Positions 16,494-17,432 of a DNA stretch of 19,471 bases are shown here, piece by piece (within the stretch, counting starts at the first letter, position 1; each line of letters begins with the position of its first letter). Source of the stretch: Pirellulaceae bacterium (GTDB lineage Bacteria > Planctomycetota > Planctomycetia > Pirellulales > Pirellulaceae); the NCBI GenBank assembly GCA_020846515.1, contig JADLDX010000466.1, positions 1 through 19,471 on the forward strand. The letters are read 5' to 3'. The notes beneath the pieces are model-generated. The model saw only the letters and a program-made list of their open reading frames with translations, searched no databases and had not been told where the DNA came from. The position numbers and the translations under genes are program-made.

Positions 16494-16502
16494 CCACGTG
16501 TA

Positions 16503-16526
16503 GCGGCACGGCGCAAGCCGTCCGGT
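16503..16526 (+). repeat. REP-like hairpin, variant B, forward
   Basis: A 24-bp unit opening GCGGCACGGC and closing GCCGTCCGGT around a GCAA loop. It is copy 1 of 11. It is directly preceded by GT of a GTAG tetranucleotide (16500-16503), the kind of 5' mark found at the foot of REP elements handled by RAYT transposases. Confidence 0.85.
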
Positions 16527-16535
16527 AAAATGGTA

Positions 16536-16602
16536 GCGGAAGGGCGCCAGCCCTCCGGTATGTCGCGCTGGTTGAGACACCGGACGGCTTGCGCCGTACC
16601 GC
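16536..16602. repeat. 67-bp composite REP pair (A forward, B reverse)
   Basis: Variant A forward (16536-16559) and variant B reverse (16579-16602) are separated by a 19-nt spacer, ATGTCGCGCTGGTTGAGAC. The arrangement equals a bacterial interspersed mosaic element (BIME). Two more copies of the same 67-bp length with near-identical spacers lie downstream of the transposase. GTAG (16533-16536) marks its left foot. Confidence 0.85.
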
Positions 16603-16627
16603 TTACAACGCAACCCAACAAACCAAC

Positions 16628-17221
16628 ATGTACTCAGACCCGCTCGCCTATTTTATTACCTGGACGTGTTACGGCACCTGGCTACCGGGTGACGATCGTA
16701 GCTGGACCAAATGGCAGAAGGGCCAGAAGATTCCTCAGCCTTTGCTTGCCGATTGGTGCAAAGAGCAAATGACTGAGGAGCCGATTGTGTTAACCGTACA
16801 ACAAAGGACGATTGTTGAAGAGACGATTGCCAAACACTGTGAAATTCGTGGTTGGCACGCGGTGAATTGTCGATCGAACCATTGCCATGTTGTTGTTACA
16901 GCCAGCAGCCACAATGGCGAGCAGGTTCGCGACCAGTTGAAAGCATGGTGCACGCGAAAGTTAAAGAAAGCGGAAGATTCCATGAAAGCGGAAGGGCGCA
17001 AGCCCTCCGGTGGCACCGTGCCCGATACAACACCGGAGGGCTCGCGCCCTGCCGCTAAAATTGAAGCGGAAGGGCGCCAGCCCTCCGGTGCCACGGCACG
17101 CGAGAATTGGTGGACTCGAAAAGGCAGTGTTAGATACCTATTTGATAATGAATCATTAGAAGCCGCGATTCAATACACCTTGGAGGCCCAGGATGTTGGA
17201 GGTTCGAAGTTTGTTGGTTGA
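16628..17221 (+). CDS. REP-associated (IS200-like, HUH) transposase with in-frame repeat insertion
   Basis: The product is 197 residues from ATG 16628, chosen because MYSDPLAYFITWTCYGTWLPGD is the conserved family N-terminus; longer frames run back into the upstream repeats. The HUH metal-binding motif is H85-C86-H87 in SNHCHVVVTA. The putative nucleophile is Y183 in LEAAIQYTLEAQ, giving a single-tyrosine (Y1) enzyme that would cut and join single-stranded DNA. The cluster LKAWCTRKLKK (about 104-114) and WWTRKGSVRYLFDNESLEAAI (161-181) are typical neighbours of that site. Residues 121-154 are encoded wholly by three copies of the 24-bp repeat plus linkers (16988-17089, 102 bp), inserted between the HUH motif and the tyrosine without loss of frame. 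The gene is otherwise intact. It is flanked on both sides by the same repeat family, as expected for a RAYT and its REP/BIME substrates. Whether it is still active is unknown. Confidence 0.85.
   Translation: MYSDPLAYFITWTCYGTWLPGDDRSWTKWQKGQKIPQPLLADWCKEQMTEEPIVLTVQQRTIVEETIAKHCEIRGWHAVNCRSNHCHVVVTASSHNGEQVRDQLKAWCTRKLKKAEDSMKAEGRKPSGGTVPDTTPEGSRPAAKIEAEGRQPSGATARENWWTRKGSVRYLFDNESLEAAIQYTLEAQDVGGSKFVG
16988..17089. repeat. Three REP units inserted in frame inside the transposase gene
   Basis: Variant A forward (16988-17011), A reverse (17032-17055) and A forward (17066-17089) together span exactly 102 bp, or 34 codons. They encode AEGRKPSG, TPEGSRPAA and AEGRQPSG. The linker between the second and third, TAAAATTGAA, matches linkers in the intergenic array and is read as part of GCT-AAA-ATT-GAA, which avoids its TAA. 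Confidence 0.9.
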
Positions 17222-17228
17222 ATCGTAA

Positions 17229-17252
17229 GCGGAAGGGCGCCAGCCCTCCGGT
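17229..17252 (+). repeat. REP-like hairpin, variant A, forward
   Basis: A lone A unit (copy 7) beginning seven bases after the transposase stop codon, followed by the linker ATAAAATTGTAA. Its stem GGGC/GCCC with a GCCA loop could also serve as the 3' hairpin of the transposase transcript. Confidence 0.85.
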
Positions 17253-17264
17253 ATAAAATTGTAA

Positions 17265-17331
17265 GCGGAAGGGCGCCAGCCCTCCGGTATGTCGCGCTGA
17301 TTAAGGCACCGGACGGCTTGCGCCGTACCGC
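17265..17331. repeat. 67-bp composite REP pair (A forward, B reverse)
   Basis: A forward (17265-17288) and B reverse (17308-17331) with spacer ATGTCGCGCTGATTAAGGC. It differs from the upstream composite by a few spacer bases and has the same total length. Confidence 0.88.
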
Positions 17332-17342
17332 TAAAATTGAAA

Positions 17343-17409
17343 GCGGAAGGGCGCCAGCCCTCCGGTATGCCGCGCTGATTAAGACACCGGACGGCTTGCG
17401 CCGTGCCGC
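17343..17409. repeat. 67-bp composite REP pair (A forward, B reverse)
   Basis: A forward (17343-17366) and B reverse (17386-17409) with spacer ATGCCGCGCTGATTAAGAC. It is joined to the previous composite by TAAAATTGAAA, and its right end lies 23 bp from the apt stop codon, so it may affect the 3' end of the apt transcript. Confidence 0.88.
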
Positions 17410-17432
17410 TAAAATTAAAACGGGTTATCCAA

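Follow-up and report, generated by a model that had tools for sequence, protein, structure and literature searches.

In 2018 Quentin et al. (PMC6006769) described that in tnpA-REP genes of subclass 2.4 (RAYT group 4) REPs lie in frame within the gene of the REP transposase, and that some members of subclass 2.8 also carry a REP insertion. Class 3 of the same scheme, with hosts among the Planctomycetes, Acidobacteria and Proteobacteria, is characterized by a distance between HuH and Y that is "more disperse". In 2013 Di Nocera et al. (PMC3733652) had reported REPs that add in-frame segments to proteins, as single units or dimers and often of 20-30 aa; the same paper refers to the Rickettsia palindromic elements, palindromes that lie in frame in proteins. 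How REPs spread has been called poorly understood (PMC8266576).

Here we describe a RAYT gene from a window of 19,471 nucleotides (contig JADLDX010000466.1 of a Pirellulaceae bacterium) in which three copies of its flanking repeat lie in frame between the HUH motif and the catalytic Tyr. The first-pass annotation of this DNA held that a RAYT with its own substrate inserted had not been described, which the in-frame REPs in subclass 2.4 genes contradict (PMC6006769). The phenomenon is already in print, and what can be added is a further class, another site in the protein and a wider recurrence.

The RAYT Gene of the Window

The gene (16628..17221, + strand) encodes a RAYT (tnpA-REP, IS200-like, HUH-Y1) of 197 aa plus stop codon, as judged from the open reading frame, the starts of the homologues and the fold of the model; the start Met at 16628 is the same as that of the homologues. 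The HUH motif is formed by H85-C86-H87 (16880..16888, +), and the catalytic Tyr is Y183 (17174..17176, +) of a Y-x4-Q motif. In an alignment of 91 sequences (A2) H85, H87, Y183 and Q188 are invariant and C86 is nearly so. The window reads NHCH, with C for the V of NHVH, has YTLEAQ as Y motif (Y-x4-Q is found in 195 of 197 homologues with DNA) and shows the W[TA] feature as WWT. The AlphaFold2 model of the protein has the predicted fold of an IS200/IS605-REP transposase (HUH-Y1); a search of solved structures by sequence returned no REP transposase, and the fold assignment rests on the model. In the scheme of PMC6006769 the sequence, with Y-x4-Q, W-T and a CnGA foot in its repeat, fits a class 3-like RAYT. 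The own genome, 81% complete, yielded no further RAYT of this type.

Two features of the protein could point to a copy that no longer works. The residues LH just before HUH are absent from it and present in 110/110 other parsed homologues (119 compared, 9 not parsed), and the Pfam profile Y1_Tnp (PF01797), which recognises 50 of the 91 sequences in A2, does not match it. A copy without LH may function poorly and drift without constraint, and the insert would then mark a decaying RAYT that had inactivated itself, a reading that we consider unlikely. The frame is open, however, with HUH, W-T, Y and Q all in place, and the homologues that carry REPs in the same loop (see below) keep open frames without deletion of LH; because those in A2 retain their frames, the HUH histidines and the Tyr, self-inactivation is not required. 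In 12 RAYT loci with matches in more than one frame, a flank repeat is present inside the gene only in L218, in a duplicated N-terminal piece. Broken RAYTs as out-of-frame counterparts of the insertion were rejected on the same count. L140 is intact, and in L141, L051 and L056, which do carry deletions or frameshifts, no flank repeats are present in the gene.

Repeat Units Inside and Beside the Gene

The three units inside the gene, which had been annotated as 24 bp long, number three indeed and measure 25 bp each; they are joined by linkers of 20 and 8 nt and span 103 bp in total. Unit 1 (16987..17011, +; AGCGGAAGGGCGCAAGCCCTCCGGT) encodes AEGRKPSG, and the nearest relatives have the same peptide here; unit 2 (17032..17056, −) is an inverted relative; unit 3 (17065..17089, +; AGCGGAAGGGCGCCAGCCCTCCGGT) encodes AEGRQPSG. 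The in-frame stretch 16988-17089 amounts to 102 bp, residues 121-154 counted from the ATG at 16628, and lies between HUH and Y183, just as had been annotated.

Eight further members of the family lie beside the gene, three upstream (16502..16603, with 16502-16526 and 16535-16559 on the + and 16579-16603 on the − strand) and five downstream (17228..17410, beginning at 17228, 17264 and 17342 on the + and at 17308 and 17386 on the − strand), the latter as a +/− array with a 78-nt period (17264 to 17342). That the internal and the flanking units are of one type, as first proposed, is borne out by the match of the intragenic stretch to the flanks (E = 4e-16, over 60 nt) and by 177 matches to the unit at no more than 2 mismatches in the own genome, where the reversed control gave 0. 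Outside the window, the exact form of the window repeat occurs at a single place (C26), and variants with 1-2 mismatches make up the rest of the places listed; "own repeat" is used here for the locally flanking form. By eye the foot, CGGA, adjoins the GGGC..GCCC stem, and the window repeat is a multicopy hairpin with a CnGA foot. Nine of 257 REP copies (duplicate loci counted twice) contain a stop codon, in one of the six frames; the whole 103-bp insert including linkers is open in four of six frames only.

To see whether other genes of the own genome contain REPs, 40 stretches (L256-L295) were picked by hand down the 100 places listed of the 177, window excluded; they hold 41 clusters with 102 copies, and some end at contig ends. 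Five of the 41 clusters lie in an open frame of at least 100 aa that leaves 40 aa to either side of the cluster, the other 36 lie in none, and Pfam at E 0.1 gave no match for those five frames. In the sampled clusters we found no clear case of an in-frame REP in another gene. Most of the sampled copies are +/− pairs, often of 70 nt, in sub-variants other than the window form.

Within the gene an inverted pair (17031..17090) with 26-nt arms, 92% complementary and 8 nt apart, makes a long hairpin possible in DNA or mRNA, and positions 16960-17110 fold at −79.7 kcal/mol (z = −5.9, 0/200 shuffles as low). Such a hairpin might turn the transcript into a substrate or decoy of the transposase, or slow translation, and the gene would regulate itself through its mRNA. 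We think this very unlikely, since inverted REP pairs fold in this way outside genes too and the hairpin is not specific evidence; moreover, relatives with a single REP in the loop have no long inverted pair, and the substrate on which RAYTs act is single-stranded DNA.

The Insert in the Predicted Structure

In the AlphaFold2 model helix alphaC (residues 97-121; 16916..16990, +; pLDDT block means 92-94 for residues 91-120) is followed by an unstructured low-confidence segment up to residue 161, by a strand (162-171) and by the helix with the Tyr (174-187). Most of the core is modelled with confidence, and for loop residues 121-160 the pLDDT block means are 45-69. The insert is located in the alphaC-beta4 surface loop (16967..17101, +) and is predicted to be disordered. 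The loop is 45 aa long here and commonly 13-14 aa in close homologues.

Recurrence Among RAYTs With Known DNA

The DNA-level set was made up of 239 RAYT hits among the matches listed, minus 26 near-duplicates (>97%) and 16 that did not span the loop, which leaves 197; part of the RAYT searches was run at a strict E of 1e-70, by which weaker RAYTs were left out. In 192 of these 197 distinct RAYTs the loop has 4-21 aa, in the remaining five 26, 32, 33, 38 and 45 aa, and all five loops of at least 26 aa contain a repeat that also flanks the same gene (loop against flank, the window as given above, L025 with E = 5e-12, L105 with 2e-11, L075 with 2e-5 and L110 with 4e-5). L025/L101 is from an uncultured Schlesneria. 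Among the other 192 RAYTs no loop match at E ≤ 1e-3 was found except in L163, where a second, partial RAYT adjoins, and the reversed-sequence control gave 0/197. The uniqueness implied at first pass does not hold: the own flanking repeat recurs at the alphaC-beta4 loop in 5/197 RAYTs at the DNA level, and at the protein level 19/118 loops match REP-encoded peptides (see below).

Repeat hits no more than 25 bp from the ends of the gene core (L012, L127, L128, L218, L180 and others) were not counted as internal, and beyond the five loops the internal matches at E < 1e-3 were L163 and L170. L170 (locus 758-1207, −) has an 18-bp exact match between its conserved N-terminal core and a flank, by eye not an insertion. 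The 13-bp loop matches of L225 and L198 (E 0.02) are weak and were taken as chance. L180, L218 and L163 are RAYT genes with partial duplicates of themselves nearby. In viral contigs a pattern hit 55 stretches, none of which encodes a relative.

These data bear on the reading that the segment is an ancestral protein loop merely resembling a REP. Over the 60 nt mentioned, loop and flanking array agree in their DNA, including a linker of the intergenic type, and nearly all RAYTs with DNA have the short loops just described. Homologues that lack REPs and share the segment were not found among the 197 RAYTs with DNA and the 118 protein loops, the latter compared at the peptide level. No support for an ancestral loop was found, and we rejected it as having practically no chance of being right. 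The segment is, as the first-pass annotation had it, an in-frame insertion of the flanking repeat, a segment that most of the homologues examined do not have.

The repeat of the window (AGCGG..GGGCGC..GCCC..CCGGT) does not resemble those of L025, L075, L105 and L110, all four of the latter being locus-specific variants of a single broad CCnGA-GCG-AGCGA type. A degenerate pattern of this type finds 589 copies in the genome of L110, 129 in that of L101, 61 in that of L075 and 7 in that of L105 (control 0-1). The separateness of the four cases rests on the tree, in which each of them is placed among negatives. A sixth case, L248 (locus 1528-2076), came from 17 further loci; two of the repeats that flank it also form an in-frame pair in its beta3-alphaC loop, the site published for subclass 2.4. 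Its genome holds 3 copies by the CCnGA-GCG-AGCGA pattern, which fits the unit of L248 poorly.

If insertion were even along the core, five of six cases (L248 being the sixth) would fall into a loop that makes up 5.5% of the core with a probability of 3e-6. This concentration counts survivors only and shows tolerance or targeting, not which of the two, and the "hotspot" may be purely one of survivorship. It could also be proposed that in class 3 RAYTs the alphaC-beta4 loop, adjacent to the predicted strand of REP recognition, is a landing site at which the own REPs repeatedly write part of the protein that reads them. We hold this to be decidedly improbable; if it were true, gain and loss of the loop could retune specificity as REP families diverge.

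Recurrence Among Proteins and in the Tree

From 1453 protein matches 120 homologues were listed, the window's entry included. Of these 118 had loops that could be parsed (2 could not), and 19 of the 118, the window among them, match six-frame peptides of REPs, in different frames and both orientations (score ≥ 29, no more than 1/200 shuffles as good, the best 40 of the 118 loops being listed, and the cut extending too far in P0005, P0008 and P0105 at least). With 107 of the 120 proteins parsed by length, 14 of the 15 loops of at least 18 aa are among these 19 positives. An AEGRKPSG-like peptide is found in the loops of P0002-P0010 and P0031/P0033, a PDGLRRAA-like one in P0004, P0012, P0014 and P0052, a RKGASPP-like one in P0012 and P0017, RTACAVPL or RTARAVPL in P0060 and P0078, and RRGRALPL in P0117. 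In P0052 the loop consists of 77 aa of tandem PDGLRDAG/PDGLRRSASG units and could have arisen from a REP that became a tandem repeat within coding sequence. For the homologues known as protein only (P0002 and others) the REP origin of the loop is suggested by peptide matches. P0005, P0008, P0009 and P0010 have a REP-like peptide in a loop of ordinary length (13 aa); the REP therefore appears to have replaced the loop there and not to have lengthened it.

REP-like peptides also occur in the C-terminal tails of P0012, P0039 and P0097, which looks as though the reading frame had extended into a REP of the flank, and in N-terminal extensions of P0020, P0038, P0044 and P0046, perhaps by miscalled starts through upstream REPs.

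In a FastTree tree of 314 sequences, from which the loop had been cut out, the 23 positives require at least 12 changes (gains and losses not told apart). The differences in reading frame argue for separate gains. The deeper nodes of the close clade of the window have weak support (23, 0, 64).

The own genome is an assembly in 1089 contigs, 81% complete, and repeats are classic points of misassembly, from which it might be suspected that the insert is an artefact of a repeat-rich assembly. This is extremely unlikely: at this position one or two REP peptides are also seen in close homologues from other datasets, the frame is kept, and the cases found at the DNA level come from other genomes.

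The insert might also have acquired a function. P0002-P0010 have retained a GRxPSG-like peptide (eroded in P0009), and other loops vary freely; the loop directly precedes the W-W-T strand, and in subclasses 2.2 and 2.6 alphaC-beta4 insertions are near the region of REP recognition (PMC6006769). Residues encoded by the REP might touch the REP and tune its recognition, in which case the element would code for part of its own reader. To us this exaptation is improbable, for the loop is predicted to be disordered, most homologues have no REP-encoded loop, and the different frames yield unrelated peptides across lineages, which is against one needed peptide.

Probable History of the Window Copy

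The explanation that we favour, and consider likely, is a rare in-frame capture of a REP at a tolerant alphaC-beta4 loop, followed by expansion of the array type, with the same happening in other lineages. P0002 and P0003 have 21-aa loops with one REP peptide each (SMKAEGRKPSSGTAR, SMKAEGRKPSGDSAR). The window loop reads SMKAEGRKPSG, then 26 extra codons, then ATAR, its lead-in being two residues shorter than in P0002/P0003. All 34 codons of the stretch had been taken as added; that codons were added stands, and their number depends on the comparison, about 31 of the 45 residues being extra against the common loop of 13-14 aa and 26 against P0002/P0003. These 26 codons form a 78-nt block (17012..17089, +), present in the window and not in P0002/P0003, the length of which equals one period of the downstream array. 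The linker AAAATTGA(A) between units is common to block and array, and the spacer of 19-20 nt inside the pair differs. This suggests that the window loop expanded by what would have been one array unit at an existing REP.

Accepting in-frame capture followed by expansion, an ancestor of the close clade would have taken one REP into its loop in frame, as the peptides of P0002-P0010 indicate, and the window copy would have gained one 78-nt REP-pair unit of the downstream-array type, be it by recombination, template switching or RAYT-mediated copying. Out-of-frame events would be removed by selection. The insertions could persist because the loop is disordered, according to the model, and tolerant in length, because almost every frame of the REP unit is free of stops and because a period of 78 nt, divisible by three, leaves the frame intact. 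In other lineages the same capture would have occurred at the alphaC-beta4 loop with other repeat variants. The repeats, their frame, their recurrence and, within a predicted model, the loop that holds them are shown by the data; neutral tolerance of the insert, like the mechanism of its entry, is what we infer.

Comparison With Known Systems

The host genes of in-frame REPs given by Di Nocera et al. (PMC3733652) have other functions, many of them in DNA synthesis and repair, and are not transposase genes, whereas in the window the host is the transposase itself. The RAYT loop insertions offer a natural experiment in which one protein exists both with its own substrate inside its coding sequence and without it. 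The Rickettsia palindromic elements are not known to lie inside the gene of a transposase of their own. RAYT loop insertions also mark local REP insertion events and give a handle on the spread of REPs.

Closest to the window are the genes of subclass 2.4 (PMC6006769). In both, REPs lie in frame in the tnpA-REP gene between HUH and Tyr, generally so in subclass 2.4, and in both the insertion region is thought to be peripheral. The two differ in the insertion domain (beta3-alphaC in subclass 2.4, alphaC-beta4 in the predicted model of the window protein), in the foot (GT[AG]G against CGGA) and in the Y motif (YIxNNP against Y-x4-Q, here YTLEAQ). With TnpA-Y1 class 3 of the same paper the window shares Y-x4-Q, W-T and hairpins with a CnGA foot that can be multicopy. 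For class 3 genes no REP insertions were found in the literature searched, PMC6006769 being taken without its supplement (Figures S6 and S10). By this comparison, a feature reported for one RAYT subclass is extended to another class, to another loop of the protein and to several lineages.
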